Shown here one piece after another: positions 1-62,395 of a stretch of 64,000 bases of DNA. The DNA lies in contig RSEE01000157.1 of the NCBI GenBank assembly GCA_003971905.1, positions 1-64,000 on the forward strand. Reading direction: 5' to 3'. A program made the translations under genes and the position numbers. The stretch's first letter is position 1, and each line of letters starts with the position of its first letter. The DNA is from Moniliella sp. 'wahieum'. Lineage: Eukaryota; Basidiomycota; Moniliellomycetes; Moniliellales; Moniliellaceae. The notes beneath the pieces are model-generated. The model ran no database searches, was not told the origin of the DNA, and saw nothing but the letters and a program-made list of their open reading frames with translations.

Positions 1-209
1 GCACCTCGTGGTCTTGCACGCACTGTTCGGCGTAGATGCTGGTACACCTGTGCGCTGTCCTGTAGGCCAAGCAGGATTCCCTGCCCGCATCTGATATCCG
101 ACGTCTGACGCTCAACGCGCCCAGCTGGGACAACATCTGCCCCGCAGGGTAGGGGGGGGCGATGGATCTGTATAGCAGGCTGCAGGCTAGCTTAGTTTGC
201 TGTATGGAT

Positions 210-272
210 GAAGCTTGAAGCTTGAAGCGTGAAGCTTGAAGCGTGAAGCTTGAAGCTTGAAGCTTGAATCTT
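210..272. repeat. Tandem heptamer GAAGCTT, nine units
   Basis: Nine consecutive 7-nt units. Six are exact GAAGCTT, two are GAAGCGT and the last is GAATCTT. Each exact unit is G plus the palindrome AAGCTT, equivalently TGA plus the self-complementary AGCT. The same unit recurs at 58904-58930, 59039-59087, 59616-59640 and 59690-59755 at the other end of the window. Confidence 0.95.
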
Positions 273-1110
273 GATCGGCATGCCGTTGCTGCGGCCATCG
301 CCATGCACCATGCGTCATCGACATCATCGATCACCGCTCATCGCTCATCTCGATCATCGGCCATCTACAGCCTAGTGTGCCAGTAACTATAGTAACCCGT
401 CCAGCTACGTCGAACCTGGGAACGTGTGCGCACGCGGGGGGCTGAGATCTGAGAAACGGTAGGGCACACGCGCAAGCGCCATCTGCGCCTCCATCGGCTC
501 ACTTGCGGGCAAGTGCCCATCGACCCATCGAGCAGCGCCCCTGCTGCAGAACTAACCAGTGACCAACCGGCCGCAATCCAAGCACGCCTACCGAGTACTG
601 AGTACCGCCTGTCAGAGCGAGGCAGCTGATCACGAGTATGGGGGAACGAAGTATCGAATGAAAGCGGTGTCGGCAGGTCGTGGCGAGAAAACAGAAGCGG
701 ACCGACCACGCAGCACAAATGAAGTGCGAGCGCGGGCAGAGCACTGGCCTAGTGCCCGCGTCCCATAGCGTCTGTTTAACGTTGACGTTACGTTGAGGTC
801 AAGCTACTGTTTCCACATCCCCACCGACCCTTCGCGGAATGGGGAACAAAAGAGTGAAAAAATTATACATCATTCACCACACTCTCAACTCACAACTCTC
901 AAATCCCAGCCCGGTACTCAGTTATTCACCACCAGCAATAGACTACCCTCCTATTGTCGAGCCTGACCAACGCGAGCCACCATGCCCTGAGGGCTGATGG
1001 TCGAGCAGGGTGATCGGCGAACGTGAAGAACAAAACAAAGGGAGTGAAATTGAACCCGTCTCGCCCGAGGGCGGGAGGGTAGAAATGGCCATCACACAGG
1101 ACACAGGGGA

Positions 1111-1137
1111 GGTCACCGGTCACCGGTCACTGGTCAC
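1111..1137. repeat. Tandem heptamer CACCGGT
   Basis: Two exact CACCGGT units followed by CACTGGT and CAC, all in 7-nt register. Read on the minus strand this is GACCGGT, that is TGA plus the palindromic tetramer CCGG. It belongs to the TRA-plus-palindrome family seen throughout the window. Confidence 0.9.
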
Positions 1138-1563: not shown

Positions 1564-4441
1564 GGTGGAGAATGCAGGAAGTGGTGGTGGTGGTAGGTCA
1601 ACAAGCTTCGGAGGGTTAAACGCTACAAAGACAGCCACGGCCCGAGGGGACTGGGCCAACTTGCCGGAGCGCGTGCGCAGCCAGAAGGAAGCCGGCAGCA
1701 GCACACTGGCGCCGCGCTGCCGACGCCTGCTGCGCCCCGTCGCGCATGGAGGGTTGAGATTGAGGCCGGGGCACAGGGCGCGCATCCAATTCTCCACGCC
1801 CGATCGGAGGGCAGCAGGCTGCCCCTGTGCCTGGGCCAGCAGGCCACCGGATAGACGGGGGATGCATCGATGACATCACCCTGCCGCCGTCTGCGCGCGT
1901 CCTGACGTGCATGATGCATGATGCATGATGCATGAGTCATCACCCATGGTGGATGTTCGATGATGTCAGAGGCAGGCGGGCCTGCAGGGGCTGGCCCAGT
2001 GGGCAGGACGTAGGCTTGCGCGCGGTGGGCGTGGAGGGTGGCGTGACAGGTGGCATGCGGCAGGGCGCATGTCGTGTGCAACCTCGCGTCACGCGTCGGC
2101 CAAAGTCAGCGGTGCATGTTTTGCAGCCATCTCTCCGATCTCGACGCACCTCGTTCGCTCCGTTGCCTTGTCACATGTCGCCTGGCAAGGACCACGTTGA
2201 GCCTGCGTGGTGCACTCGAGAGGGGACCAACGACGACACGCGTCAAGAGCGTACACCGCACACCCAGCCATCTCGGACGGTTCCCTCTGGTCTGTGTGCA
2301 AAGGCAGTACCCTTAACGATAAGGATTAAGGTTGGTACCGGCTAGGACCCATGGAGTAACGATCTCAGACCTCAGCGCACGCTCTCGGCCGGCCGCGGTG
2401 ACAGGTGCCCCCCCCGTGGTACTCATCCTCACCGCCTCCGGCTCACCGGAGTGTCGATCGCTTCGCACCTACCAGCACCAGGTACCGCTTGTGTCTTGCC
2501 TCTGTTTTTACATGGCCAGGGTCGATATTGGGCTGAGTGCTGTGAGCCTCAGCGCTGAGCGGGGGTTGGGTAAACGTTAAACCGGAAAAACGGTGAAGGA
2601 ACGAGGAAGGCTCTGCGCGCAGCGCAGCCGCCGCTTTGTACTGATCGAGAGAGACCTTGGTACCCACGTTCCATCCAACCATCAGTTACTAGTTACCGCA
2701 AAGCGGGTCCTGCGCTTCGCCCATATGGCACACATGGTTTTCTTAATGAGACAGCAGCGGCGGATGAGCTGATGAGCGGGGGAAAAGACAGCATGCAGAG
2801 GGAGGAAGGAAGGACTCTCCCGTCCACTCCAATCGCGGTGAAGGTACCAGGTTGGGTGTTGGATCAGGCCTCAGGCTGAGGCCTCAGGGATGCAAGTGGG
2901 CCATATCCAGACGGAGAGGCAGGAACGAAGGCGACGGCCCAAAGGATGCACACTGTCCCAACAGCGATGCACATAGCGACGCCCACCATCCGTTTTTTGC
3001 ACTCCAAATGAAGGTACTGCTGGCGCGAGGATGCTATGCCACCCCGACTGCTAGGAAGATGGTCAAGACTGGAACACGTGAGCCACAGAGTTTGGTTGAA
3101 TAACCATGGCTTCCATGTGCCCGACGTGACGCTACGGTATTGTATGCCCTGGCGCTACACCAGACTTGAACAGGCGGGACGGCCGGACCTACTGACACGG
3201 CCGTTTGGGCGTCCTCCTTGAGTGGACCTGACCTGCCACAAACGCCTGCAGCACGAGCGAGCCCAGTGACCAGTGCCTAGTGGCTGAGCGCGGCGCTGGA
3301 TGTCCCCTCAGTACTCAGTCGTCTGTCCCTGCTCAGGTGCTAAGCTTCAAGTACCTCGAGTAACGTTGATGATAGATATATATCTGTGGAGACTATCATG
3401 GCCCTCTTTGGCCACAGGACATTGCACCGCCCTTGCCAGGCAGGCATCTGGAAAGGTGGAACTCACTCCTCACCCGGACCGTCTGCGACGTAGGGCACAT
3501 CCTCACCGTGGTCCAGGGAAGAGAAGCGTCCCACGGGCCTAAACTCTAAACCCTCAGCACTAAAAACAGGCCCACGTGCTACCGTGGATAACCTACTAGG
3601 TAAACGTTGGCCTGTACCGTACTATACGCCTCGTGCATTGTTCGGGACCCACAACTGCGCCGAACCGCAGGCGGACAACAAGCACGCCAGCTGCCCCGCA
3701 AGGCCGCTGTGGCGACCATGACCAACCGGGACGACGACAGAGGCCGCTGAGGGGGAGAGGAAGACTCAAGCCTGACTGGCTTCTTGGCACGCGGCCTCCC
3801 AGACAGCCGCAGCGACGCTGGCCACAGCGGCGGACAAGGACCAGGAGCGTGGCGCGGGCTGGGGCGGGAGCTGGTTGGGCGGAGCGGTGGGCAACCAGGC
3901 AGGCGCATGGGCCGGAGCCAAGAAGAGCTGTTCCCATTCCGGATGGCGCGTGCGACGTTCGACATAGGCCGTGGTGGCGGTGGAGGTGAGTGTGTCGCCA
4001 TCGTCGGTGCTCGGAGGCGGGAGGGACCGCGGAGTGAGCCGTACCTCCTCCACCACCAGCACGGCGTCCTGGGCAGTGGCCCAGCCAGCAGGCGAGCCTG
4101 CCATCCCAGCGGCCTGCTGGGCGGCCGCGGTAACCGCTGGCGGATCCGTGGCGCACCAGGCCGGTCCGACCCCAAGTTGGTCCACTGAAGACGCATGTCG
4201 ATCGTCCGCAGGGTGCGGTTGCGGCGCGAAGGACGCAGACGCACTTGGATCCGGCGCGCTGAGCCCGGGTCCGTAGGTACCTCCGCGGCGGGCGGGCGTC
4301 CGTGTCGTTGAGAAAGAGGAGATCATCTTCTCCCCACGCGGATCCCTCGAGCGGGGTCCAAGGCAGACCTGGGTCGTGGTCTTCCCCGCCCGAACGGTCC
4401 TGCTCAAAGGTAGGATAGCGCGCTCTCGTTCTTTCCACACT
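1564..4441. other. Long spacer without a supported gene
   Basis: No gene is supported between PMP3 and the CENP-O candidate. A GATGCAT tandem sits at 1913-1940. On the minus strand, 3579-4440 carries overlapping Pro/Arg/Ala-rich frames whose most sensible reading is acidic (around 4290-4430). This could be a further exon of the downstream CENP-O candidate or a separate small gene, but I see no domain and leave it uncalled. Confidence 0.4.
1913..1940. repeat. Tandem heptamer GATGCAT
   Basis: Three exact GATGCAT units followed by GAGTCAT in the same 7-nt register. The unit is TGA plus the self-complementary tetramer TGCA. Further pairs of this unit lie at 6512-6525, 38263-38276 and 59858-59871. 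Confidence 0.95.
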
Positions 4442-15363: not shown

Positions 15364-16270
15364 TTAGGAATGGAACAAGCCTGCTTCGCGCTCGATGCGC
15401 GGCACCGTCCCTGACCGGGCCATGTTGAGAAGCGACAAGTAGATGGTCCAGAAAACCTGATGCGGGGGGTTAGTACCTAGTTAGGATCGGCCCGGGCATG
15501 AGAGCAGAGAGGAGGGGGACGCACCCCGCACGTCGACATGAACGGCACACGGTACTTGAGCGGCATGAAACGAAAGTTGACCAATTGGACCACGGGCCAT
15601 ACTTGCCAATTGGCCAATAAGGCTTCGGTGTACATCTGGTGAGTCTCCAAAGTCAGCTTGGTTGTATCGTGGGTGGGAGGCACGTACGGATCGGTACTTG
15701 TCCCCGATCTCCTTGGGAGCCTGTCCTTCCAAGACGGAGATGACGCCAATGAATGCCGCGACGGAGAAGGGGCCACTGGGAAGGTGTAACATGTAAGCAG
15801 GACAAGCACAGATCAGATCAGGGCAGAGCAGAGCCGCCGAAGCGGAAGCAGGAGCAGGAAGCAGAAACAGAAGCGGACGAACAAGATGGTTTGATCTACG
15901 ACGACCCGTCGGAACAGGAGAGGCAAGCGGACCACGCCCGCTTGCACAATGGGAAACCGGCGCTCCAGCATCTTGTTCCATACATCCAACGGCGGAGCCA
16001 TGAACATGCCAAAGCCGAGAACGGGCGGAGCGGGCCAGGTCAAAGCCCACGGCCGATGGGGCTGCTGCTACGTCCGGCACGACGGCGGGCTTTTCTTCCA
16101 GCTCGGAGCTGGCTGCAGCAGGCCGAGTGGGGGGCGGTGGCCGCGTACAGCTCAAAGCCCTGTGCACACGCATCAGCCACGACGCTCAGGCCGCCATTGG
16201 TGGCAGCCAAGGTGAGCCACGGATGGCGCTCAAACGAGCGGCCATAGAACGCAGAGAAGCGAGCGAACAT
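15364..16270 (-). CDS. SYM1: SYM1/Mpv17-PMP22 family inner-membrane protein, frameshifted
   Basis: Mpv17-type four-helix membrane protein; yeast Sym1 sits in the inner mitochondrial membrane and is needed for ethanol metabolism at high temperature. From the ATG at 16270: FYGRSFERHPWLTLAATNGG and LSVVADACAQ, then DLARSARFLGFGMFMAPPLD with VWNKMLERRFP after a frame change near 16120. An intron (GTTCGT...TTCCCAG, about 15776-15895) leads to GPFSVAAFIGVISVLEGQ. The signature VNFRFMPLKYRVPFM follows (about 15545-15595), and a last exon reads VFWTIYLSLLNMARSGT, with the stop at 15364-15366. Every block is in family order. At least one other splice lies near 15660-15700. The gene is convergent with RPL13. 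Confidence 0.87.
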
Positions 16271-16989: not shown

Positions 16990-18873
<1,884 letters not shown>

Positions 18874-19232
18874 CGGAGGGGGGCAGGATGCATGCTGTAT
18901 GCATGCTGTAGGGGTCGGCGGGTGTGTGTGCGCGGGGATAGGGTTGGGGGTAGGCGATGCTGCAGACGTACAACGAACGGTTGGATAGCTCCCTCGCGCG
19001 CTGACGTACGCAGCCACAAGCAGCCATGCCTGACGCGTGCTGACGTTGAACGTTCAACCCGCGGTGAATATTGGATGCTGATCAGCACAGCCAGCACGGC
19101 GCATCGATCACCGATCCGCTCACCGCGGCCCCCAGCCAGCCCAGCCACCCACGCCGGTGGCGGCCAGGCGCGCTCCACGCCCACACCCACACCCACGCCC
19201 ACGCCCCCCACCACCACCGCCTGCTCCTCGCC
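18874..19232. other. PAB1-VAC8 intergenic region
   Basis: Contains a GCATGC-rich repeat (about 18888-18909) and a TGACGCG/TGACGT/TGAACGT run (about 19031-19054) of the heptamer family. It is otherwise unremarkable and probably holds the VAC8 promoter. Confidence 0.5.
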
Positions 19233-21071
19233 ATGGGCAACCTCTGCAGCTGCGGCCGCTCCCGCCACGCCCAGTACGAGCCGCTGCTGCTCGACACGGA
19301 GCGCGACGCCGTGGCCGACCTGCTCCAGTACCTCGAGAACCGCTCCGAGACGGACTTTTTCCAAGGCGAGCCGCTCAAGGCGCTGTCGACGCTCTCCTTT
19401 AGCGACAATGTCGACCTCCAGCGCAGTGCCGCGCTGGCCTTTGCCGAGATCACCGAGAAGGAGGTCCGCGAGGTCGGCCCCGACACGCTCAAGCCCATCC
19501 TCTTCCTGCTCCAGAGCCCGGACGTGGAGGTGCAGCGCGCGGCGAGCGCGGCGCTGGGCAACCTGGCCGTAAACAGTATGTTTGGTTTGGTTTTGTTTGC
19601 GCTCGTTGTGTTTGGTCTGCTTGTTGACCATGTGCCTTCTCGTCCTCTTCTTTCTGACCCGTGCGCCGTGCTCCTCCCCAGAAAACAAGCTGCTGATCGT
19701 GCGCATGAAGGGGCTCGAGCCGCTCATCCACCAGATGCTCAGCCACAACGTCGAAGTCCAGTGCAATGCCGTCGGCTGCATCACCAACCTGGCCACCCAC
19801 GACGAAAACAAAACCAAGATTGCCCAGTCGGGTGCGCTGCTGCCCTTGACGCAGCTGGCGCGGTCGAAGGACATGCGTGTGCAGCGCAATGCGACCGGCG
19901 CGCTGCTCAACATGACCCACAGCGACGAGAACCGGCAACAACTGGTCGCTGCCAATGCGATCCCTGTGCTGGTCAGCTTGCTTTCCAGCAACGATACCGA
20001 TGTGCAGTACTACTGCACCACCGCGCTCAGCAACATTGCTGTCGATGCAGAGAACCGGACCAAGTTGGCGCAGACGCAGCCCACGCTCGTGCAACGCTTG
20101 ATCGCCTTGATGGATAGCAACAGTCTGCGCGTTCAGTGCCAAGCTGCGCTCGCACTGCGCAACTTGGCCAGCGACGAGAAGTACCAAGTGGAGATTGTCC
20201 GCTTTGGCGGGCTGACTCCACTGCTGCGCCTGCTCCAGAGCTCCTTCCTACCTCTCATCCTCTCTGCCGCTGCGTGCGTGCGCAACGTCTCGATCGACCC
20301 CCACAACGAGACAGCGATCATCGAGGCGGGCTTCTTGCACCCGCTGATTGAGCTGTTGAGCCACGACGACAATGAGGAGATCCAGTGCCATGCCATTTCG
20401 ACCTTGCGCAACTTGGCAGCCAGCAGCGAGCGCAACAAGGCCGAGATTGTGGCCGCGGGCGCGGTGCAGCGCATCAAAGCACTTGTGCTGCATGTGCCAC
20501 TGGCAGTGCAGAGCGAGATGACGGCCTGTGTCGCGGTGCTGGCCTTGAGCGAGGACTTGAAGCCGCAACTGCTCGGGATGGGCATTTGTGAAGTTCTCAT
20601 CCCGCTCACGGCGAGTGAGAATGTAGAGGTACAGGGCAACTCGGCCGCCGCACTGGGCAACCTGGCCAGCAAGAGCGAAGACTATGCACCGTTCAATGCG
20701 GTTTGGGACCACCCAGGCGGTGGGTTGGAGGCCTATCTCGTTCGTTTCCTCGAAAGTGGCGACTCGACCTTCCAGCACATTGCCGTCTGGACCGTGCTCC
20801 AATTGCTCGAGGGCAAGGACCCGGAGCTGGAAGAACACTTTAAGCGATCCCCAAGATCCTGCCCTTGGTGCGCCAACTCGCCTTTGCCCCGTCCGAGTAC
20901 CCGCCGGACACGTCCGAGCACAAGGAAGGCGGGTCCGACGTCTCGGGGTCTCCCGAAGGTTCATCGATCGTGCCCTCCAACTCGGGCTCGGACGACCAAG
21001 GCGCCGAGGCGGAAATTGCCAACTTGGCCCAGCGCCTGGTTGCCATGCTGGAGGAGGACGAACAAAATTGA
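19233..21071 (+). CDS. VAC8: Vacuolar armadillo-repeat protein Vac8
   Basis: Vacuole membrane scaffold for inheritance, nucleus-vacuole junctions and selective autophagy. The N-terminus MGNLCSCG has Gly2 for N-myristoylation plus nearby cysteines for palmitoylation, which fixes the start at 19233. One 106-nt intron (19576-19681, GTATGT...CCCCAG) splits the first armadillo repeats. Exon 2 carries about ten ARM repeats, with blocks such as [55 protein letters not shown] and [21 protein letters not shown] one-base loss at about 20844 (AAGGCGATC read as AAGCGATC) shifts the frame after EEHFK. Restoring the register continues as [13 protein letters not shown] and an acidic tail ending EEDEQN at 21071. 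Length and repeat order match fungal Vac8. Tandem with PAB1. Confidence 0.95.
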
Positions 21072-32380: not shown

Positions 32381-32872
32381 GGTGGCGAGGGTGGTAGACC
32401 AGGTGGACGCGGAGACAGAGTGCACGGTGTAGGATAAGAAAACAGCAGCACGCAGAAAATATTTTTTGGTGTTTAGCCCGACGTTTACCCGACCGGGGGA
32501 AAAGCCGGGGGGATGTGGCTGGTGGGTGATGGGTGGTCGGTGATCGACGAGGCAGGATGGATGCGGTCGAGGACAGGATGGGGTAACCCTAGTGGTGGAT
32601 TTGCTGGGTTTTGAAATGTGCACTGTGGACGCAGGCACGGCATGGCAGTGTGAGATGTGCGATGTGCGATGTGCATGTGATCATGTGATCGAGCTGCGAT
32701 CTGGATCTGAGCGATCTGAGATCTGAAGCCGAACGCGCATCTGAGATCTGACACGTGGCTGGAGGAGCCCAAGCGCCAGCCAGAGCACGACGGAACGATA
32801 AGCGCTGAGCCGACGGGAGCGTCGTATACGCTCCGCCTGCCTGAGACTGCTGATCCGTGCAGCGGGTTAAAA
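32381..32872. promoter_or_regulatory. MFS/IML2 divergent intergenic region
   Basis: Contains a telobox (AACCCTAG, 32585-32592), GATGTGC tandem units (about 32653-32673), TGATCATG/TGATCGAG (about 32677-32692) and two GAGATCT units (about 32718 and 32742) of the heptamer family. Confidence 0.5.
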
Positions 32873-35577: not shown

Positions 35578-36081
35578 GCCGCGTAGAAACCTGTGTACCG
35601 CGCACCGCGTACCGCATCTCCCCAGTGACCAAGTGACTAGGGACTAGGGACTAGGGACCGTGACTGCGGCAAGAGGTTTGCCCTGCTTTGCGTTGCGGCG
35701 TGTTACGTTTCGTCGGCCCCATCTACTGCCAAGGCGTAGAATGTTGAGACCACACCACCACTACCCTCACCACAACACAACCTCTCTCTCGTTCCTGTTT
35801 CTTTTTTTTTGGCTTACCTCTCTCGGCCGTTTGTTAGGGAGAGGGAATGGATACCCCCTGCATGATCGCCATCGCTTGCCCTACTATCCAGCTCTTTGGA
35901 CAAGGTCAGTTGCTATAGCTCCTGCTGCTGTCCAGGGGTGTGGGCTGGGATGGGGTGGGGCTGTGCTGGCAATAGGGAACTACTTGCATAGCGCAACACG
36001 CGGCCTCGCAATTGCCCTACAAAAGTACATTTGCTGGTTCCTCTGTGTTCGGCCGCCAGAAGACAGAAGCACGAAGCCGCC
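35578..36081. other. Spacer, nothing recognised
   Basis: Contains GGGACTAG-type direct repeats (35638-35657); no gene. Confidence 0.5.
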
Positions 36082-38142: not shown

Positions 38143-38163
38143 GACGCGTGACGCGTGACGCGG
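38143..38163. repeat. Tandem heptamer GACGCGT
   Basis: Two exact GACGCGT units and one GACGCGG in 7-nt register: TGA plus the palindrome CGCG. Confidence 0.9.
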
Positions 38164-38624: not shown

Positions 38625-38655
38625 TGACATGTGACATGCATGTGACATGTGACGC
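38625..38655. repeat. Tandem heptamer TGACATG
   Basis: TGACATG twice, a CATG insertion, then TGACATG and TGACGC. TGA plus the palindrome CATG. The reverse form TCACATG twice is at 51366-51379. Confidence 0.9.
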
Positions 38656-41310: not shown

Positions 41311-44300
41311 ATGCAGCCACCGGCCGGGACGTGCGCCATGAAGGGGCTGTGCGGCAAGACGGGCCTGTTTGCGCCCGAGATCCCCTGTGCCGTCGACGAT
41401 GCTCCGGCAGACGAGGTGCGTGTCTGGAGGGCGTACGCTGCGGATGTAGTCCTGCGGACTGAGTACTGACCCCCGCCGCTCCATCTGATGGTCGCCAGCC
41501 GGACTCTGCCTTTCGCTCCCTGCTGCTGGATGTGTGCGGCGCCGAGTTTGCGTCGGGTCCCGTGTGCTGTGAGCCAGGCCAGGTCGAAATCCTGGCTGGC
41601 AACCTGGACCAAGCGTCGCCGCTCATTTCCTCGTGCCCGGCCTGCAGCAACAACTTCCGCCACTTTTGGTGCTCCTTCACCTGCTCCCCTGCCCAATCCC
41701 AGTTCCTCGAAGTAGCCCAGACACAAACGATCGACGGAAAGGAGGCTGTCAAGCAGGTCAACTACTTTGTCTCGAACCAGTTCCGCCAAGGGTTTTACGA
41801 TTCCTGCAAGAACGTCCAGTTTGGTGCGACGAATGGGTTTGCGATGGACCTGATTGGCGGTGGCGCACGCAACGCCGATGACTTTCTGTCGTACATGGGC
41901 CAGGAGCGGCCGCTGCTCGGCTCTCCGTTCCAAATTGACTTTCCTCCTCCCCCCTGCCCACAGTGGCGGGACAACTCAACCGCACCTCTCCTCTTGCTTT
42001 TTCCAAGCCTCTTCCTACACCGTTTGATCCGCCAGCTCGCAACTGCTCCGGGGGATCTGCGGTCGCGTTGTGCGTGCATTGATTGCCCCGACGTTTGCAC
42101 CTCGCTCCCTGATGTTCCGGCACCATCGGAGCAGCAAGAGTGCAAGCTGTTTGCTTGGCCTTGCAACCAGCTGGTTATCACCATGTTGTACTTTTTCGTG
42201 CTGTTCCTCTTCTGGGCTGGATTCCTGTGGAAACGCTCTGCCCCATCGGCCTCCAAGAATTCAAACCGGCGCCACACCGTGCCTGTGTCAGCGCCCGTAC
42301 CCGAGACAGACCAACCTAGTTTTCGCCCAGACGAAGGTACTGCACCTCCCTCCCACGCCGGCGTACCGGAGCCACAGGCGGACTCATCTGCGTACGACAG
42401 GGAAGCGCACACGCCCGCGCCTGCATCCCAGCAGCCTGGGGCGCATGCGATCCAACGTTGGCTGTCCCGCAGTATGTACCAGCTGGGGCTCATGTCGGCG
42501 CGCAACCCGTGGCAAACCTGTTCGCTGGCTGCGCTCTTGCTTGGCGTAGCCAACCTTGGCTGGATCTGGTTCCGGGTCGAAACCGATCCGGTCCGGCTCT
42601 GGGTCGCGCCCAACTCGACGGCCAAGAACGAGAAGGATTTTTTCGATCGCCAGTTTGGTCCGTTTTACAAGACGGAGCAACTGTTTGTTACCGACCGAGC
42701 TGCCGCTGGGTTTTACCGCCACCGCGACCCGTTGGATCATGACAATGCGATTGAGGACTTACCTCCCGTGTTGACCTGGCCGCGCTGCAGTGGTGGGCTG
42801 ATGTTGAGGCTGAGATCCGCGCGCTGAAGGCTGGGCCGAATCAAACGTCGTTCCAAGATGTGTGTTTTGCTCCGAGTGGACCTGGGGGTGCCTGTGTGGT
42901 GGAGAGCATCATGGGTTACTTTTCCGACGACCTGGTGCGTGCCGGGGTCACCAAGCACAATTGGCGCAGCAGCCTGAACCAGTGCGCGGCGCGCCCGGCC
43001 GAGTGTCTACCGCTGTTTGGTCAACCGCTGAAACCGAATTTGATTCTGGGTGGGATTCCGATCGATGCGCCTCCGGCCGACGCACGTGCGTTGGTGGGCA
43101 CCTGGGTGGTGGAGAACAGTCTCGATAAGCGCAAGCTCGCCCGTGCCGAGGCATGGGAGCGCGTGCTGCAGGCGTTTTTGCTGGACTTGGCGGGAAAGGC
43201 GCCCACGGGGAGCAAGCGCCATCCCTTGGCTCTTCGTGCCAAGCAACTCGGATTGCACGTCTCCTTTAGCACCGGTGTCAGTTTGGAGGAGGAGATTTCG
43301 TCCAGCACCAATACCGACACGGGCATCGTGGCGCTGAGTTATCTTCTCATGCTTCTGTATGCATCCTTGGCCTTGGGCGGAGGCTACGTTCCCGCACGTA
43401 GGGTGGACGCCCAGGGTCAGGTTGTGCATTCTACGTTCTGGGGGGACGTGAAGACGGCGCTATCTTGCCGCCCGAGAGGCATTCGTTTGCCGGACGACAT
43501 GCTGGATGAGCAAGATGCGCGGGCGAACGCCCGTTCCCGCCTCATTGCCGGCTTCTTTGTCCGTTCCAAGGTCACCCTCGGTCTGTTCGGCATCTTGATT
43601 GTTATGGTAGCCATCTCATCGGCGGTGGGGATTTGGTCGGCGCTGGGAGTGCGGATGACTCTGGTGATTGCCGAAGTCATTCCCTTTCTCGTGCTGGCTG
43701 TCGGGGTCGACAACATTTTCCTCCTTAGCAACGAGATGGACCGTCAAAACACCCTTTGCAGCACCAGCAACCCGTACTATGATACCCGTGACGACGACGT
43801 CCACGCAAGTTCCCTGGGCGAGAACAACGAGGTGGATGCGATGCAGGCTGGCCATCGGCCTACAGAGTCCATGCCAGCCTTCCACCTCTCTGCAGAGGAG
43901 AGGGCGGCAAGAGCGTTGGCGCGCATTGGGCCGTCAATTGTGCTGAGTGTGTCGATTCAAGTCAGCGCCTTCTTACTGGGCGCGCTGGTTCCCATGCCGG
44001 CCGTGCGCAACTTTACGCTGTACGCGGCGGGGAGCATGGCGATTGCCGCCCTGTTGCACTGCACCGTCTTTGTCGCTGCGCTTGCGCTAGACGCACGACG
44101 GAACGAGAGCGAACGGATCGACTGTTTCCCCTGTGTCCGAGCCCGCAAGCCTGCCCACCTGCCGGTCCAAGCGCTCTCGGTAAGCTCTAATACGGACCTG
44201 GTCCCGGAGAGCTGGCTAGCCAAATTTATGCGGGAAACGTACGCTGGCTTCATTGTCCGGCCGAACGTCAAGCGTGTTGCTCTGGCTCTCTTTGTACTGT

Positions 44301-45780
44301 TGGGTGCCAGGTCCATTATGCTTACTCACCAGATCCACATGGGCCTCGACCAGCGTCTCGCCCTTCCGCCGCACTCGTACTTGCGGGGGTACTTTGACGC
44401 TGTCGATACTTGGCTCGATGTAGGCCCACCAGTGTACTTTGTCGAGTGGAGGGCGGATACCAAGTTCCGCTATGTCCAGCGGCAGCTGTGCGCACGCTTC
44501 ACCACCTGTGCGCCTTTTTCGGTGGCAAACACGTTGGAAGGCGAGCGCAAGCGCCCCGCATCGTCCTACATCATCGAGCCTGCCGCCAGCTGGATCGATG
44601 ACTTTTTCCAATGGCTCAACCAGCCATCGACAGCTGCTGCCGCGTGCGGATCAACGACCCGTCCAAATTCTGTGCGCCGCGCGATTCCGAGTTCTCGTGC
44701 CGGCCCTGCTTTGAAGGGAGAGAATACAACACCACGCTCCAAGGCTTGCCGGAAGGAGACGAGTTTATGATGTTCTGCGCCAGTGGCTCAAGAGCCCGAC
44801 GACGGCCGAATGCCCCCTGGGCGGTGCAGCGTCCTACTCGTCGGCCCTTAGCCTCAAGCGCACCAAACTGAACGCCAAAGAACCCCTCTTGGACTTGGCC
44901 TTGAACAAGACCGAGGCCGAGTGGGCCTTACAATGTGGCAGGGCCCCCGCCCGGATCGGGAGGACCGCAAGATGAACGTGTTTGCCTCTCACTTCCGTAC
45001 CTCGCACGTCCCCCTTCGCTCGCAAGCCGACTTTATCAATGCACTCAAGGCAGCCCGCCGCATTGCCAAGGAGACGAGCGAGCGGTCGGGAGTGAGATTG
45101 TTTGCCTACTCTCTCTTCTACCCTTTCTTTGACCAGTATCTCCACTTGCCCGCGCTGGCGGTGCAAGTGCTTGGATCGGCAGCTGTGGCCATCTTTGGGA
45201 TCAGTTATGTGGTGCTGGGCTGCTGGCGGACCGCAGGAGTAATCTTGGTGTGCGTCGCATCAACGTTGCTCGGCGTGGTTGGCTCGATGGGCCGATCCGG
45301 AATCGAGTTCAACGCGCTGACGCTGGTCAACTTGTCGGTGTGCGCGGCAAGGGGTGGAGTTCTGTGTGCACGTTGCCAAGGCGTTTATGCGTGCGCCCGG
45401 CGACGGCGGGGCAAGCGGGGCGAGGAGCGCATCTGGGAGAAGGAGCGCGAACGGGGGTGCAGGCGGCGGTCGGGGATGTGGGTGCGTCGGTGCTGACAGG
45501 CATCACGGGGACCAAGCTGGTGGGGCTGTCGGTGCTGGGGTGGACAAAGTCGGAGCTACTGAAACTGTACTATGCCAAGATGTGGATGGCGCTCATCCAG
45601 CTCGGCGTCCTGCATGGCCTCGTGCTCCTGCCTGTTCTCCTCTCCTTCTATGGCGGGCCCAGCAATGCCGGACCGGAGGACGAGAGCGAGGCACGCCGCC
45701 GTCTGCTCCGGGCGCAGGACAGCAACGCGAGCCGCCCCTTCGCCCCCACCGGTACAGAGGGCGACGAGGACGAGGCGTGA
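41311..45780 (+). CDS. NCR1: Niemann-Pick C1-type sterol transporter Ncr1/NPC1, frameshifted
   Basis: Vacuolar membrane protein moving sterols and sphingolipids out of the lumen. Exon 1 carries CAMKGLCGKTGLFAPEIPC, the start of the cysteine-rich N-terminal domain; its signal peptide is not cleanly readable and the ATG is tentative. An 83-nt intron (41416-41498, GTGCGT...CGCCAG) leads to LLLDVCGAEFASGPVCC, SCPACSNNFRHFWCSFTCSP, YDSCKNVQFGATNGFAMDLI and, after a hydrophobic stretch, CACIDCPDVC. TM segment ITMLYFFVLFLFWAGFLW follows. The middle domain includes NQTSFQDVCFAPSGPGGACV and LVGTWVVENSLDKRKLARAE. The sterol-sensing domain spans about 43560-44150, with LAVGVDNIFLLSNEMDR. Later come VDTWLDVGPPVYFVEW and a C-terminal helix bundle from IFGISYVVLGC to LGVLHGLVLLPVLLSFYG. 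About six frameshifts (near 42790, 44630, 44760, 44950, 45350, 45400). Confidence 0.9.
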
Positions 45781-50514: not shown

Positions 50515-51859
50515 ACTGCTCGGGCAAGCATCCTGATGGCGCGCCTGCTCGTGTGGCCATCCCCCTTGGCTTCAGGGGGAATGGACAGAGAGCAGCTCGT
50601 TTGCAATTCATATACATGCGTCCTACCTACTCCCACAATGGTATCAATGACGAGGACATCGGGCAGCCATAGAGGCACTCCAGGCACCTAACGAAGATGT
50701 GAGCGCACGTGATGGTGCACGTGACCCGCACGTGTGCTTGCTTGGCGCATGCTTGATGCGATTGCACCGACTAAGCACTAAGCCTTAGAGCTTAGGCTTA
50801 GCGCTACGCTTCGCAGCGTCGGGTGAGCCTCAGGCTGAGCTCAGCGTGCCCAGCGCCAAGCGCCAAGCGGTGGCACAACAGCGCTTGTGCGCCCTCGAGC
50901 GTCGCTTCCTCGTGTCACCGTGACATCTGTCACGCATCACATGCCACATGTCGATGTGACGTCGAGGCGGTTGGCCCAGGCTGCCGCGGTGCGCCGCCAC
51001 GCGCAACGGCCGCAACGCACGGGGGTATTGCCGGATGCCTCGTCTCGTCTCGCGTCTTGCCTGGTACGGCCGGCCGCAGTCGCCGGTTTCTGTGTTCTGT
51101 CCGTCCCTGTCGCGACCATTACTCATCGATCATCGCCGTCCTAGTCATCGCTTGCCCTTCGCTCCACTCGGTCCTGCCGTAGGTTGGGCCTTATCGATTA
51201 TCGATTATCGGCCTTGCCACTCTCGACGTCGGCTCTGGTCCATCTTACTAGTTCCTCGGCTCTGCGCAGGCAGAGCGATCAGGGCCGCAGGCCTCAGGCG
51301 GGTCGGGAGTTCCGAGGTGTGCGTTCTAGTCCCCCTCTCTTCCCTGCTGGGTGTTTTGAGGCGTGTCACATGTCACATGCCATGGCAAGTTCGCTGCGTC
51401 CAACCCGATGTACCGGTCTGCAAGAGAAATGAAATGTGGGGCAAGAAGAATTGAGAGAAGAGAGGAGATCGTCAAGCGGATGGGAGGAGGAGGCGGAACA
51501 AGGGGAAGGGAAGGGGAAGGGGAAAGGGTGAGGGTAGGGATCTCGGCAGGGACGAATCAAGTCGAGTGCGGGAGAAGAACGAGAACAGCGATACAGACGA
51601 GACGGGGCATCGACTGGGCCATCCGACGATGGCGCTAGTTGAGGCAGTAGCAGGGCCGCTATTGGTCCAATCATCCTCAGTCCCCGTACGCCTTTCGAAA
51701 GGAAACAAAAACTTAGGAAAGGCGGTGGAGGGTGGGCAAGGGGGGGGTAGGGCAGTAGGCACCGAAGGGGCAGATGATGCGGTGCCTTCCAGCTAGGTGA
51801 GAAAGGGTGTGGGTAAGGCAAGGGACAGCAAAGGCCGGAACGAGAAGGGAGGGGGGGTA
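50515..51859. other. FUM1/RAC1 spacer with palindromic repeats
   Basis: No supported gene. It holds three CACGTG E-boxes (50706-50734), a CTAAG/TTAG cluster (50771-50806), TCACGCA/TCACATG series (about 50931-50951), TCATCGA/TCATCGC (51123-51136), TTATCGA three times (51191-51211) and TCACATG twice (51366-51379). Confidence 0.6.
51191..51211. repeat. Tandem heptamer TTATCGA
   Basis: Two exact TTATCGA units and one TTATCGG. The reverse complement is TCGATAA, the same repeat as the TAATCGA array at 59979-60013: TAA plus the palindrome TCGA. Confidence 0.95.
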
Positions 51860-56506: not shown

Positions 56507-56780
56507 TCTTCTTTCTTCTTCTTCTTCTTTTTCTTCTTCTTCTTTTTCTTCTTCTCTTTCTTCTTCTTCTTCTTCTTCTTCTTCTTCTTCTTCTTCTTCT
56601 TCTTCTCTTCTTCTTCTTCTTCTCTTCTTTTCTCTCTTCTTCTTCTTCTTTTCTTCTTCTTCTTTTCTTCTTCGTTTCTTCTTCTTCTCTCTTCTTCTTT
56701 CTTCTTCTTCTTCTCCTCCTTCCTCCTCCTCCTCCTCCTCCTCCCCCTGCTCTCCCCCTGCTCCTCCTCTCCTGCTCTTG
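56507..56780. repeat. Long polypyrimidine (TTC)n tract
   Basis: About 270 bp of almost pure pyrimidine on the plus strand. It is mainly CTT/TTC repeats from 56507 to about 56715, shifting to TCC and CCCCTG units towards 56780. Only one G interrupts the first ~240 bp. The open frames on it (Phe/Leu/Ser-rich one way, Glu/Lys/Arg-rich the other) are composition artefacts. Confidence 0.95.
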
Positions 56781-57690: not shown

Positions 57691-58198
57691 TAGCATACCG
57701 ACCACGCTCAGCACTCATTCCACTTTCGTATCCTCAAGCGCTAGTATATTTCTGTGATTTGGAAGAACATGGCGGGCGTTAGAGGGTCCTGTGAGACCTG
57801 TTGAGAAAACACACCATACAGAACTGAGCTCTTATTGCGTTCTTCAAGCTTGACACGAACTGTCACGGCACCCGTCACGGATGAGCGAGAGCGTGCTGGG
57901 CGCTGCCTTTTCCCTCAAGTTTCGCAATACTATATGTATTCAGATGTATTCAGAAGCTATATACTCTCTTCCTGTTTTCCCTTCTCCTCTACTGTGAAGA
58001 AAAAGCCCTACACTGATTCATCTACGGACGGACTGGAGGTATACGTACCAGCGAAGGAGAATAGCGACGTCCTGATCCACCTGGTTAAGGAGACCGCAAA
58101 ATGGATGCTGAAGCGCTGAAGCGTATAGGACAGTATAGCGTAGGCGATCAATTGCGGGTGAGAGATAGGCATTGGTGGTATAGGAAGCAGGACGAGGG

Positions 58199-58246
58199 CT
58201 TAGCGTTAAGGCTTAGCGCTAAGTTTTAGCCCTAAAAGGCCTAACA
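58199..58246. repeat. Palindromic TTAG/CTAAG cluster
   Basis: CTTAGCG, TTAAGG, CTTAGCG, CTAAGTT, TTAGCCC, TAAAAGG and CCTAAC follow each other at 6-7 nt spacing, giving many overlapping inverted repeats. Similar clusters lie at 50771-50806 and 16452-16466. Confidence 0.85.
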
Positions 58247-58903
58247 GGAGAAAAAGCCGCTAGTCGCTGATTGATTATCCGTGGCTAGGCCCTGCGGCCG
58301 GAAGTGCCCCTCCACGATCGGGGACCACAGTCCCCGTAGCTGCAGGATGCTGCAATGGGCGTAGAAGCGTATGGGATACAGTTGCGTAGGCGATCGTTTG
58401 GGGTGAGATACTATACTACCTTAGCCTTTTTGGCCGCTGCCCCACGGGACTTGTGGATCGAACGCAAGGCGCAACGCGTAACGCGTGACGCGTAAAGCGG
58501 GTATCGTGTAAGAACGCTTATTTCTGCGTTTGCTGTTGCGTCTGCCTATTCGCCTGGCTGTGCATGTGAAGCTCTAGTTCATCTCGAAGTTTCAAATGTC
58601 AAAATCCAATGCCAGTCTGATCCGAACAGCGTATCCATATACACCCCACAGGGCTCTGCTATAGAAGCTGTGCGAGTTTGCTATGTACGCGCCTCCCCCC
58701 TGGTCCGATCCCGTCCGATCCGGGCAGACCTATGTCGGGTCGGATGTAGCGCCGACTTTCGGCGTTGCGGCTCCTCTGGTCGCTGCCGCCCATCTCCGAT
58801 GCTGAGGCGCGCGGGCGGCAGCCTCTCATATCTCAGACTTCACATCGATCTCACACGCCACGACTCTCCTCGATCCTAAGGAACTCGGGTCAGATCCCGC
58901 ATC

Positions 58904-58930
58904 TTGAAGCTTGAAGCTTGAAGGTTGAAC
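58904..58930. repeat. TTGAAGC heptamer array
   Basis: TTGAAGC twice, TTGAAGG and TTGAAC in near-7-nt register; same unit as the 210-272 array. Confidence 0.9.
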
Positions 58931-59038
58931 TAGAGGCAAAAGCCTGAGCCTAAGGGAGGCCAAGGGAGCTTCAGTATACCAGTCTATCACTCTCAGGCCG
59001 GAGGCGCCGCCTGAGGGAGGTCTGAGGATCTGAGGGGG

Positions 59039-59087
59039 CTTGAAGCTTGAAGGGCTTGAAGGGCTTGAAGCTTGAAGCTTGACGCTC
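59039..59087. repeat. TTGAAGC array with 9-nt variants
   Basis: TTGAAGC, two TTGAAGGGC, two TTGAAGC and TTGACGC. The 9-nt units carry a GG insertion. Confidence 0.9.
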
Positions 59088-59205
59088 GAGGAGCTTGAAA
59101 TCGTTCAACGTCCAACGTTCATTATCATTCCTTTCTCAAAGAAGCCTGGTCTGTGCTCGGGATCTTCCGGTTCCCATGGAGTCAAAGGCGTGACGCGTGA
59201 CTGTT

Positions 59206-59233
59206 TCATCAATCACCGATCATAGATCACCGG
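59206..59233. repeat. Period-7 TCANNNN series
   Basis: TCATCAA, TCACCGA, TCATAGA and TCACCGG: the TCA anchor keeps an exact 7-nt register while the tetramer varies. Confidence 0.9.
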
Positions 59234-59325
59234 GTGTACACCGTCACGCGCGTCAGGGAGCCTCAAGACCTCGATCAGTGTCTGGAGAGCAGGGTAGCCG
59301 GTACGGCAGGGTTTGCTGTCGCATT

Positions 59326-59346
59326 AGGCCTTAGGCCTTTGGCCCT
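59326..59346. repeat. Tandem heptamer TTAGGCC
   Basis: TTAGGCC twice and TTTGGCC. The tetramer GGCC is a palindrome and the spacer is TTA (TAA on the other strand). Confidence 0.9.
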
Positions 59347-59615
59347 ACTTAGGGCCTTGATTCAAAAGGGTCACCCGGTCACGCGCACGCTTCAACCTTA
59401 GTTGTCCCCAATTTCCCCACCCAGAAGCTCAGGCCACCCTGGCACAACGTGTAGCGTTTAATTTTTGTGTCTTTGCCACCAGCCACTATGCCCAGGGACC
59501 TTTCTCCCGGACATGCGACCGGCAACTAGAGCGACCTCTGCAAGCCACATTTACTGTCTTTGCAGCTTGAGTACTTGGTACTTGATGCACTTGAGTGCAT
59601 TGAATCAAATTGAGA

Positions 59616-59755
59616 GTCTTGAAGCTTGAAGCTTGAAGCAGGAGTAGCATGGATAGGTAGCATCTTGAATGAGCTGGAGCTTGAGCGCTTGAGCAGGCTT
59701 GAAGCTTGAGGCTTGAAGCTTGAAGCTGAGGGCTTGAGGCCTGGGGGATCTGAGG
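59616..59755. repeat. TTGAAGC/TTGAGGC interspersed arrays
   Basis: Three GAAGCTT-type units at 59616-59640 and about eight TTGA-anchored units at 59690-59755, several degraded. Confidence 0.8.
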
Positions 59756-59857
59756 CTGGCGTTCGCAGACCATATGGCCAGGCTTCTTGGTATCTATACT
59801 CGGGACTGTGAAAGAATCAACAGCTGAGCACTATGATGCATGGTACAACCCTGCACA

Positions 59858-59930
59858 TGATGCATGATGCATGTGACATGTGACGTAGTGACACTAGTGA
59901 CTAGTGACTAGTGACTAGTGATAGTGACAT
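59858..59930. repeat. Compound heptamer array (TGCA, CATG, CTAG)
   Basis: TGATGCA twice, TGACATG, TGACGTAG, TGACAC, TGACTAG three times, TGATAG and TGACAT. Three different palindromic tetramers share one TGA-anchored array. Confidence 0.95.
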
Positions 59931-59978
59931 AGCGACACTCCCCATGGGTGACCGGTGATGCGAGATGCGTGAGATGGG

Positions 59979-60013
59979 TAATCGATAATCGATAATCGAT
60001 AATCGATAATCGG
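59979..60013. repeat. Tandem heptamer TAATCGA
   Basis: Four exact TAATCGA units and one TAATCGG: TAA plus the palindrome TCGA. The same unit is inverted at 51191-51211. Confidence 0.95.
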
Positions 60014-60076
60014 GAATGCGTAGTGCATCATAATGGGGGGGGTGTTTACTTTATGTAGTTGCACAAGTAGGGACTC

Positions 60077-60110
60077 TGAGATCTGATGTATGAGCATGAT
60101 GCGTGATGGG
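60077..60110. repeat. TGA-anchored heptamer series
   Basis: TGAGATC, TGATGTA, TGAGCA, TGATGCG, TGATGGG; the first tetramer, GATC, is a palindrome. Confidence 0.85.
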
Positions 60111-60591
60111 CTAGCAGCACGCCAGAGCAGCCAGAGCACGCCGACCATCTGCTGCGTTGTTGCCACTGCAACGCCACGACGCTGCCAGGGTACTGTTGTT
60201 TCACTCCGCCCAGGCAGCCACTGGCAGATGGGATCTACATAATACAGAGCGTTGTGAAAACTGGTGCATGAGCACACTTGTCAGTAGTACTCTGTACTCA
60301 GGCTGCCAGTAGTACACTTGAGCATGTGAGCACAGAGTATCGAGTACAGAATACTGAGCACGCATCAAGTCCTCCATCCGGTTTCTATAGCCGGAACGGA
60401 TACAGCCTGTGGCCTGAGGTACAGGCCTGACTGGCCTGAAGGCCTGAGATCTGAGACCCAATACAGCTTAATTACCGTCTAATATTTAATGCAATGATTA
60501 GTGATCGAAATGATCAGCGGCTGAGCCGCAGTGCCTCCGCAGCAGTCAACTGCTAAGCTGTCTCAACAGCACAAGCAAACTGGTAACCGGT

Positions 60592-60633
60592 AAACGTGGT
60601 AAACGTTAAACGCTAAACTTAACGTTAACCGCG
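60592..60633. repeat. TAAACGT/TAACCGG repeat
   Basis: Units GGTAACC, GGTAAAC, GTTAAAC and GCTAAAC lie in near-7-nt register (TAA plus ACGT or CCGG palindromes). Confidence 0.8.
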
Positions 60634-60704
60634 CTCAACACTAAGTACTAACTCCTAAAAGCGTTCTTGCTTCCATGTACGTTAGACGTGGTAAACGTTA
60701 AACA

Positions 60705-60725
60705 TCACGCGTCACGTGTCACACC
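60705..60725. repeat. TCACGCG/TCACGTG/TCACACC series
   Basis: Three units in exact 7-nt register; TCA plus CGCG is a palindromic member. Confidence 0.9.
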
Positions 60726-61092
60726 CGGCTTGTTCGCTCTCGGAGCACTCGTCCCACGTTCCTGTGTCTGCTGGCGGGCTTGGCTCTGTTCGGCTTGGTT
60801 TTTGGGCCCTGCCATCAGGATGGCCATCATGCATCAACGGTTCACCTTCACCTTCATCTTCAAGCTTCAAGCTCCAAGCTTCAGCTTCAGCTTCACCCGC
60901 GCGCCCTCGACGCCTCAACAATCCTGTTCCAACAAGCTTTTGGCCCACCATCGGTTTTCCGCCCCTGCGCCTCAGCTTGTTAGGCCCGCCCGCTGTCTGT
61001 TTCCACCATCTTTGAACCTCTTCTTGCTTGCGGCCTCTCGCTCCAACCGCCGGCTTACTCGCCCACCACATACACACCTTACGGCGTGTCCA

Positions 61093-62395
61093 ATGTTCTA
61101 CCAAGATGCAGCTGGCTGTGGCCTCTCGGCACCGTCTCCGCCCCAGCCTCGCCCTGAGCTCCCGCTGCCCGACGTCTTGACCCTCGACACACTCTCTCAA
61201 CCCTTGCCGTCTCAGCCCCTGGTGACCGTTGGCCAAGCGCCATTCCCACCCTTCGACGGCCCGCATCATGGGGAGCCCCCCGCCTTCCCCACACCACATC
61301 CGCACGCACCAGCTTCGAATCCGCTCCCTCCCCTGGCGCTTCCCTCCTCGGACTCGACCCAGCACCCCGTGCCTTACCCGCTAACGAGCCCCCAATCGCC
61401 CTTTGGCCTGGGGGTCTACAGGCACAGTCTCGTTTCCCGTGGCCTGGATCGAGTGAATAGCATTGACACCCCCCCTCCAACTACGGGCACCTGGTCTCAT
61501 TCATCAACCCCAGCACAGCTCGGGGGCGCATCTCTTCTTCTTCGCGCTATCGCCTGCCGGAGATAGTGCGGACACGTCTCCTGTATGGACTGCAGCGGAA
61601 ACCAATTGGGCGCCTACGGATATGGCCTTTGGAGTACCCCCTCTCTGGAGGTAGAGCCACTGGGAACCAACCTGCTTGGCCTTCAGCTTCGGGATCAGTC
61701 GTACTTTTGTGGTCCCCTCTCTGTGCCCCCGACAACTCAGGTACGGTCTTTCCCCGTTCTCTTGACCTAGTTTTGGAGATGCTGGACTGACCCTCCTTGA
61801 CACTCAGCTTGCTACGACTGCTGCACTCTCCCCCTTCTCAAGCCAAGGGCCTTCGACGGACAGGAGTAGTATATCGTCTTCTACCAATATGTTTAACCTT
61901 TTCAGTGAAGCAGGAGACTCCCACCTCCTGCATTCTCCTGGCCTGAACAGTTACACACCAGGAAGGAGGGTCACTCTCCCAAGCCTTCCTGTCCCTTACG
62001 ACTATCCGCCACGTCCCGTGCCGACACCTATCACTTACTCTTTCTTGTCCCGGCCATATGACTGGGGGAGTCTTGACACAACCAAGAATCCCGTCCCTAT
62101 CCAGCGGCGTAAATTCAAGAGGAGCAAGACAGGCTGCCTTGTGTGTCGGAGACGGAAAGTTCGCTGCTCTCAGGACGGTCTTCCCTGCCGACAATGCAAG
62201 ATTGGCAAGCGGGAGTGCCATTATAGAAAGCCACCCCAAGACGATTCTTCATCCCAGCAACAAGAGGATGCTAGTGACAACGCGTCGCCCTCCGGTACCC
62301 CTGACTACCTACCTGTACCTTTGCTCAAGGAGACCCTGAATGATCCAAGTTGCCTGCGCGGTCGGCGTCATTCCGGGTGTGACCTTCCCTACTGA
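61093..62395 (+). CDS. Zn2Cys6 (GAL4-type) transcription factor with C-terminal zinc cluster
   Basis: Nuclear DNA-binding regulator. A long Pro/Ser-rich, probably disordered N-terminus starts at MFYQDAAGCGLSAPSPPQ (61093), but an earlier start is possible. It changes frame near 61540 and 61600. A 67-nt intron (61741-61807, GTACGG...ACTCAG) joins LSVPPTTQ to LATTAALSPFSS. The zinc cluster (about 62135-62219) has the full C-x2-C-x6-C-x6-C-x2-C-x6-C pattern within CLVCRRRKVRCSQDG and PCRQCKIGKREC, preceded by the basic RRKFKRSKTG. Only about 55 residues follow, to the stop at 62395. The binuclear cluster is thus near the C-terminus, and the usual middle-homology domain is absent. Targets unknown. 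Confidence 0.8.

Follow-up and report, generated by a model that had tools for sequence, protein, structure and literature searches.

Palindrome-centred heptamer arrays in the spacers of a Moniliella genome, probably built from a stereotyped templated micro-insertion at TNA

The stretch of DNA analysed here, hereafter the window, comprises bases 1-64000 (64,000 nucleotides) of contig RSEE01000157.1 (C157) in the 69.49-Mb, 223-contig assembly of Moniliella sp. 'wahieum'. It carries pieces of a VAC8-like gene and of an NPC1-like gene. A second, diverged haplotype of the window lies on contig C65, with 89% identity over the spacer-rich bases 58000-61600 and 98% over the NPC1-like gene; C153 and C22 form a further related pair in the assembly. 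Two segments of the window, 17126-21063 (against stretch L028) and 41313-45775 (against L040-L043), have related stretches elsewhere in the genome at 74-83% identity, two of which display a conserved neighbourhood, suggestive of an older duplication, segmental or whole-genome. The dispersed repeat at 58055-58201, about 140 bp long, recurs in at least 38 further places at 78-89% identity, three other stretches (L034, L035 and L037) have about 260 bp in common at 93-95%, and a long, imperfect TCT/CTC microsatellite occupies 56507-56777. In the NPC1-like gene region, a short direct duplication of the non-palindrome type (GACGTGAA) is present in one haplotype (window near 43445 compared with L039). 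The 5.8S rRNA gave 14 matches of clearly unequal scores (on C21, C33, C37, C41, C103, C6, C2 and others), indicating heterogeneous rDNA copies such as are also described, in the available text of one report, for the smut relative Ceraceosorus (PMC11687029).

The window further contains short arrays of exact 7-bp period, whose unit is typically TGA or TAA (TRA) plus a 4-bp palindrome, and isolated 12-mers of the form pqTNA-q'p'-pqTNA, in which q'p' is the reverse complement of pq. The loci considered are the following.

209..274, + strand: TGA-AGCT array of about nine units with AGCG and ATCT variants (period-7 scan)
1111..1137, - strand: TGA-CCGG array (TCA-CCGG on the + strand) with one CCAG variant (period-7 scan)
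1908..1935, + strand: TGA-TGCA array of four units (period-7 scan)
15785..15796, + strand: isolated 12-mer TGTAA-CA-TGTAA; a 112-bp segment has an equal span in C65
24230..24241, - strand: isolated 12-mer (TCATTAATCATT on the + strand); the C65 span is 1 bp longer over the matched part
38143..38162, + strand: TGA-CGCG array (period-7 scan)
38625..38653, + strand: TGA-CATG units (period-7 scan)
41458..41469, + strand: isolated 12-mer ACTGA-GT-ACTGA; C65 has GCGGAAGTACTGA, in which the first copy is incomplete, and is not a clean empty site
51123..51134, - strand: isolated 12-mer (TCATCGATCATC on the + strand); by coordinates, C65 is 7 bp shorter over a 112-bp segment
51191..51210, - strand: TAA-TCGA array (period-7 scan)
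58905..58928, + strand: two TGA-AGCT units plus AGGT; C65 has AGGT plus ACGT
59324..59339, - strand: TTA-GGCC repeat (given in + strand letters); C65 is shorter by one unit (7 bp)
59618..59639, + strand: TGA-AGCT array; C65 has two more units
59858..59930, + strand: composite array with TGCA, CATG and CTAG units that share one register or nearly so
59947..59958, + strand: 12-mer GGTGA-CC-GGTGA; at the same TGA, C65 has TGA-TGCA-TGA-TGCA-TGA
59979..60012, + strand: TAA-TCGA array with five TAA (period-7 scan)
60075..60086, + strand: 12-mer TCTGA-GA-TCTGA; C65 has TGATGTA TGATGTA instead
60582..60593, + strand: 12-mer GGTAA-CC-GGTAA; C65 has a base change inside it
60640..60651, + strand: 12-mer ACTAA-GT-ACTAA; C65 is 14 bp longer
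60858..60873, - strand: TGA-AGCT array (TCAAGCT on the + strand); C65 has other units and another length

Arrays were defined by an exact period of 7 over at least 14 bp, and were called quasi-palindromic when their unit reached 6-of-7 cyclic self-complementarity, for which the null expectation is 11.2%. By this measure 32 of the 51 period-7 arrays of the window are quasi-palindromic, as are 72 of 124 in an independent sample of 200 kb (L009-L028, twenty 10-kb stretches at fixed positions on contigs C1 and C2; 264 kb in total with the window), which bears out the original observation of 7-bp arrays built of TRA and a palindromic tetramer. Period-7 arrays are also 8-9 times commoner than in local dinucleotide shuffles (124 versus 15 in the sample, 51 versus 5.5 in the window). 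Other periods likewise exceed their shuffles, about 4-fold for period 6 (200 versus 45), and what distinguishes period 7 is its palindromic fraction, not abundance alone. At the other periods from 4 to 9, neither window nor sample shows palindromic units in clear excess: periods 4-6 lie near the null, period 8 yields 1 of 13 in the window and 0 of 21 in the sample, and period 9 yields 0 of 9 and 2 of 16. The nine arrays of period 11 (1 of 6 and 1 of 3 palindromic) are too few for judgement. Genome-wide, a run of five TGA spaced at period 7 is found 2,309 times, compared with 426 for its backward reading, and (TGAAGCT)x3 is found 1,035 times, compared with 0, overlapping matches being counted throughout.

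These heptamers do not behave as a microsatellite of arbitrary unit: identical adjacent tetramers in TRA chains are palindromic in 50 cases and non-palindromic in one, and isolated sites with only 5-6 bp of identity occur. As in microsatellites, copy number varies by whole units, the two haplotypes differing in length by 7, 14 and 28 bp. Eleven of the 16 possible palindromes had been claimed from the window; 15 occur between TRA anchors in the 264 kb, TATA being absent. Unlike palindromes stand next to one another in one register in eight adjacent pairs; within 59858-59930 the claimed common register is accompanied by spacings of 8 and 9. The idea of a rule on unit structure, rather than of one spreading microsatellite, is upheld; some exact heptamer arrays break the rule, namely GGGAATT (1224-1253), GACTAGG (35635-35658) and GATGTGC (32654-32674). 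At the individual places that had been listed, arrays were recovered at or within a few bases, apart from two weaker items and several single intervals. The GTAC array placed at 593-606 proved to be one TGA between two GTAC, and the ACGT site placed near 52822 reads TGA-ACGT-TCA, which is palindromic throughout and has mixed anchors; the proper form, TGA-ACGT-TGA, occurs at about 52850.

The palindrome rule is tied to the anchor. In TGA-N4-TGA the tetramer is palindromic in 215 of 385 cases (56%) against an expected 6% or so, and in TAA-N4-TAA in 36 of 79 (46%). Among the best 24 triplet rows, the next-ranked triplets reach 4-12%, and we read the highest of these, CAT and ATG at 12%, as overlapping TGA-TGCA arrays. 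Grouped by class, the anchors CNG, GNC and ANT give 1-6%. When the middle base N is equal in both anchors, 251 of 464 tetramers are palindromic; with mixed N the proportion is lower (48 of 265, 18%), yet still above 6%. In 50 kb of E. coli DNA, 14 of 98 TNA..TNA tetramers are palindromic against 3-4% for the other anchor classes. Given the mixed anchors and E. coli, a small part of the palindrome signal may be generic.

Isolated units reveal the elementary product. It is the 12-mer pqTNA-q'p'-pqTNA, that is, a 5-bp direct duplication around a 2-nt reverse complement of pq, with the mirror form TNArs-s'r'-TNArs for the opposite strand. Among 123 isolated TNA-palindrome-TNA sites, 83% carry the period-7 identity on for 2 bp or more into the left or the right flank (about 12% by chance with equal bases), and the distribution peaks where one side has exactly 2 bp and the other none (32 sites, 17 + 15); 144 non-palindromic isolates show a steady fall-off of identity, 31% reaching 2 bp. 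In a grid scored at the turn triplet for detached length (k) and copied-back length (j), with expectations from composition, the large counts at TNA follow the diagonal k+j=4 and are highest at k=j=2, with 303 occurrences in 264 kb against 1.4 expected (1.7 in local dinucleotide shuffles). The window contributes 95 (0.35 expected) and the sample 208 (1.1 expected), and none was found in 50 kb of E. coli (0.39 expected). At other turns the k=j=2 counts are 5 against 3.1 (CNG), 8 against 3.3 (GNC) and 2 against 1.4 (ANT). The remaining k+j=4 entries are also what complete tandem repetition of a palindromic unit gives; k=j=1 falls below expectation (11 versus 21.8), k=j=3 and k=j=4 are rare (4 each), and the k+j=6 diagonal is enriched with small counts (4-8 per cell). 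Over all triplets, 486 12-mers compare with 55 in shuffles. The 60 non-TNA triplets jointly give 183 against 44; 70 of these overlap TNA arrays, and the 113 that do not still represent an excess of about 2.6-fold. TNA therefore dominates by far, and a weak general tendency persists at other triplets.

As the count of 303 takes in array units, we also considered a clean set of 83 12-mers with at most 1 bp of further period-7 identity, which for that reason do not represent intact tandem duplications of 7 bp; 43 such sites stand apart from every other unit. Around the 83 clean events, whose flanks represent the sequence after the event, there is no strong adjoining motif beyond TNA. The only strong departures are T at r5 and A at r7, the place of the next TNA at 7 bp, and mild departures occur at o1, o3, o4 and r3 (chi-square 9-10, 3 df), of which A at o3 is again a 7-bp place. 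With array units included, N = C or G is used about twice as often per site as A or T and some pq are favoured; the clean events show neither preference, which may therefore concern array growth. The insert is the reverse complement of immediately adjacent sequence and is followed by a direct duplication, both of which are expected of a template switch that returns upstream. A pre-existing imperfect inverted repeat, the usual seed of quasi-palindrome mutation, was not detected among the 83 clean events: r1 is complementary to q in 15 (background 28%, the clean filter lowering the figure) and r2 to p in 27 (background 29%).

The units differ frequently between haplotypes. Across four aligned pairs, with 93-97% of aligned bases identical, the units differ at 23 of 28 array loci and agree at 5, the script possibly splitting adjacent loci; since point mutations and whole-array changes are among the 23, not every difference represents an elementary event. 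The clearest allele pair is that of L042 (TGATCGATGACTTATGG) and L043 (TGATCGATGACTAGTGACTTATGG), where TGACT is opposed to TGACT-AG-TGACT beside a TCGA unit. This clean empty and filled pair, which has a 2-bp difference a few bases upstream and of which either state may be the older, shows how unlike palindromes come to lie side by side. At window position 59947, GGTGACCGGTGATG (GGTGA-CC-GGTGA) faces GGTGATGCATGATGCATGATG in C65 (TGATG-CA-TGATG-CA-TGATG) at one and the same TGA, as though it had undergone one event templated on the left and another templated on the right; at 59575, the window has CTTGA and C65 has CTTCA-AG-CTTCA-AG-CTTCA. Spans in the other haplotype were compared, by coordinates rather than letters, for 20 of the 43 isolated sites. 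Thirteen were singly readable, one being shorter by 7 bp (window 51123), nine differing by -1 to +4 and three longer by 8-19 bp; of the other seven, three had no allele match, one lay in a dispersed repeat, two could only be read jointly (-3) and one had a broken match. Most isolated events thus seem to predate the split of the compared haplotypes. A dispersed repeat around L009:2772, several listed copies of which are some 6-7 bp shorter than the queried one, was considered as a source of natural empty sites and set aside when a search with its flank pattern found the queried copy only.

Inside ORFs of at least 300-350 amino acids, palindromic units occur at a density 7-11 times lower than outside; as a proxy for coding sequence such ORFs are biased, in that TGA and TAA end reading frames. 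The anticipated contrast with coding regions accordingly holds for density; the palindromic fraction inside long ORFs is still 14 of 30 and 6 of 14. Orientation is without strand bias (99 versus 98), and neighbours agree more often than they disagree at less than 50 bp (36 to 10), about equally at 50-200 bp (29 to 25) and less often at 200-500 bp (12 to 23). Extrapolation from the 197 distinct places in 264 kb (the window and two contigs) would put the genome-wide number of such places at about 50,000.

We propose that the arrays are probably built from one stereotyped templated micro-insertion, consisting of a fold-back at TNA, a 2-nt copy and a 5-nt recopy. Where the context is pq-TNA-rs, the 3' end of a DNA strand, having just copied pqTNA, would leave its template and fold back at TNA, T pairing with A and N forming the turn. 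The folded end would copy its own bases q and p, adding q'p', upon which synthesis would return to the original template at p and recopy pqTNA. The net result would be a 7-bp insertion converting pqTNA to pqTNA-q'p'-pqTNA, or, for an event on the other strand, to TNArs-s'r'-TNArs. Since the sequence q'p'pq is palindromic and comes to lie between two copies of TNA, each such event makes TNA-palindrome-TNA at period 7; the palindrome would exist because two flanking nucleotides are copied as their reverse complement, and its identity would be set by whichever flanking dinucleotide served as template. Repeated events together with ordinary 7-bp slippage would then yield arrays, slippage probably adding copy number after the initial events, and events templated from the left and right flanks of one TNA would place two unlike palindromes next to each other. 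A fold-back of a single strand, be it during replication or at a break, is what we infer from this product. Two period-13 repeats with long self-complementary units (58197-58235 and 13745-13777; GGCTTAGCGCTAA, GACTGAGTACTCA) are perhaps rare longer fold-back events.

Two related ideas were tried and abandoned. A hairpin across a TGA loop, of the form N4-TRA-N4' without duplication, is not enriched (42 versus 35 expected), and the quasi-palindromic 7-mer itself is only slightly enriched outside tandems (TSA 498 versus 446, TWA 190 versus 148); the TWA excess, of about 4 standard deviations, may reflect array remnants or a weak seed effect. The stability of the turn was likewise rejected as the reason for TNA: nearest-neighbour DNA energies give no advantage to a TNA turn and do not separate the four triplet types, and a 2-bp stem with a 3-nt loop is computed to be unstable, at about +2 kcal/mol. 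Against a simple fold-back, from which other turns and stem lengths would be expected, stand the depletion of k=j=1 and the rarity of k=j=3 and 4. A turn so strictly TNA, together with a copy of fixed length, points to an enzyme or to DNA geometry outside the energy model. Tentatively, and with considerable doubt, one might imagine a dedicated or diverted TNA-specific activity of fixed 5+2 reach, for example a domesticated nuclease, a reverse transcriptase or an end-joining polymerase, writing palindrome-centred heptamers into the spacers of this lineage; if so, tandem repeats would here have a novel, sequence-specific generator, one that has left tens of thousands of scars genome-wide. Searches of the genome gave three matches to the Ku family and 12 to the XPG family. 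A search for family-A polymerases is expected to recover the mitochondrial polymerase as well as Pol theta; here it matched neither, and so carries no weight as to Pol theta.

The main rival to the fold-back reading, which we regard as unlikely, is a hypothetical sequence-specific enzyme making staggered breaks at NNTNA, with a 5-nt stagger that would yield the 5-bp duplication, and a 2-nt fold-back fill-in at one end that, after end joining, would yield q'p'. It would account directly for the TNA motif and the fixed 5+2 geometry, and the Ku-family matches are compatible with it, as are the 2-nt fold-back insertions that, in the available account, require non-homologous end-joining (NHEJ) genes at yeast breaks (PMC11724301). 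A cut symmetric about TNA would, however, give a 3-nt rather than a 5-nt stagger and leave pq unduplicated, and the chemistry invoked is in part that of the fold-back itself. A good deal less probable is hairpin-driven replication slippage, which would expand any self-complementary heptamer and turn the palindrome rule into survivorship. The units of the arrays can indeed fold back on themselves, and the whole-unit differences between haplotypes are those that slippage would leave; yet the palindromic excess is found at period 7 and not clearly at the other periods from 4 to 9, and the single 12-mers with their 5-bp repeat are no slippage product of 7-bp units. Nor does the excess follow foldability, for it sits at TNA anchors although the CAG- and GAC-anchored arrays tested, of three units, fold more stably in silico than TNA-anchored arrays of four. 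Slippage as sole cause, one of the two explanations originally offered, predicts other periods and CNG/GNC anchors; as the latter fold at least as stably and neither is in excess, it is unsupported in that role.

The footprint of a terminal-inverted-repeat transposon, our initial idea, was dropped once the flank correlation was seen and is now judged highly improbable. In that case TNA would represent a target duplication of 3 bp, and xy..y'x' would consist of 2 bp remaining from each terminus, in keeping with the palindromic N4 and with the retention of the same N on both sides in most palindromic cases; the termini of an element should not match the target flank, as they do in 83% of the isolates, and 15 of 16 palindromes would demand almost every possible terminus. 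Least probable of all, in our estimate, are selected sites for two-fold-symmetric DNA-binding proteins or chromatin factors, the other explanation first offered. Symmetry of the units and their position mostly outside long ORFs would suit such sites, but a protein cannot require complementarity between two otherwise free dinucleotides, and with 15 of 16 tetramers in use there is no conserved core beyond TNA. The differing units at most compared haplotype loci and the unbiased orientation argue against them as well.

The origin of tandem repeats from unique sequence has long been a question, and in the fold-back reading the birth event is visible here as a 12-bp product. The rule is sharp (TNA, two nucleotides back, five base pairs again) and can be counted without experiment, the two haplotypes in one assembly supply empty and filled sites, and the whole offers a quantitative natural signature for fold-back template switching. 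It raises the question of why the turn is restricted to TNA and why copying back stops at two bases. Since the arrays differ at most of the compared haplotype loci, they should also be useful strain markers.

In the open-licence literature searched, we found no matching description of the heptamer palindrome rule or of the motif-locked 5+2 geometry; fold-back template switching itself is known in yeast. Heptamers of the sequence TAACTGA in Beggiatoaceae are likewise abundant, intergenic 7-bp direct repeats, and as far as the available text goes they are bacterial and of one fixed unit, without a palindrome rule (PMC4679880). The (A)n/(T)n microsatellites of Fusarium are palindromic simple repeats in a fungus; they are described, in the portion available, as mitochondrial homopolymer pairs and not with a 7-bp period (PMC7218506). 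Quasi-palindrome-associated template-switch mutation and short-range template switching share local reverse-complement templating; in the available accounts the former uses existing imperfect inverted repeats, whereas the sole seed seen in Moniliella is TNA (PMC3820800, PMC7954356). At double-strand breaks in yeast, inverted fold-back insertions down to 2 nt have been reported, with fold-back synthesis inferred and Pol delta and NHEJ genes needed; the part of that report at hand places them beside a single enzyme-cut site where they depend on a 10-bp imperfect inverted microhomology, and describes no heptamer arrays (PMC11724301). In rad27-deleted S. cerevisiae, 21 events were attributed to a nascent strand that folds back and then resumes on the template with duplication, so that there too an adjacent reverse complement is inserted together with a direct duplication (PMC5677150). 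Those events, in the text available, belong to a mutant, lie at inverted repeats or palindromes and vary in length (PMC5677150); the Moniliella events, unlike them, combine a turn of three letters with 2 nt copied back and 5 bp duplicated, and occur in large numbers, building tandem arrays.
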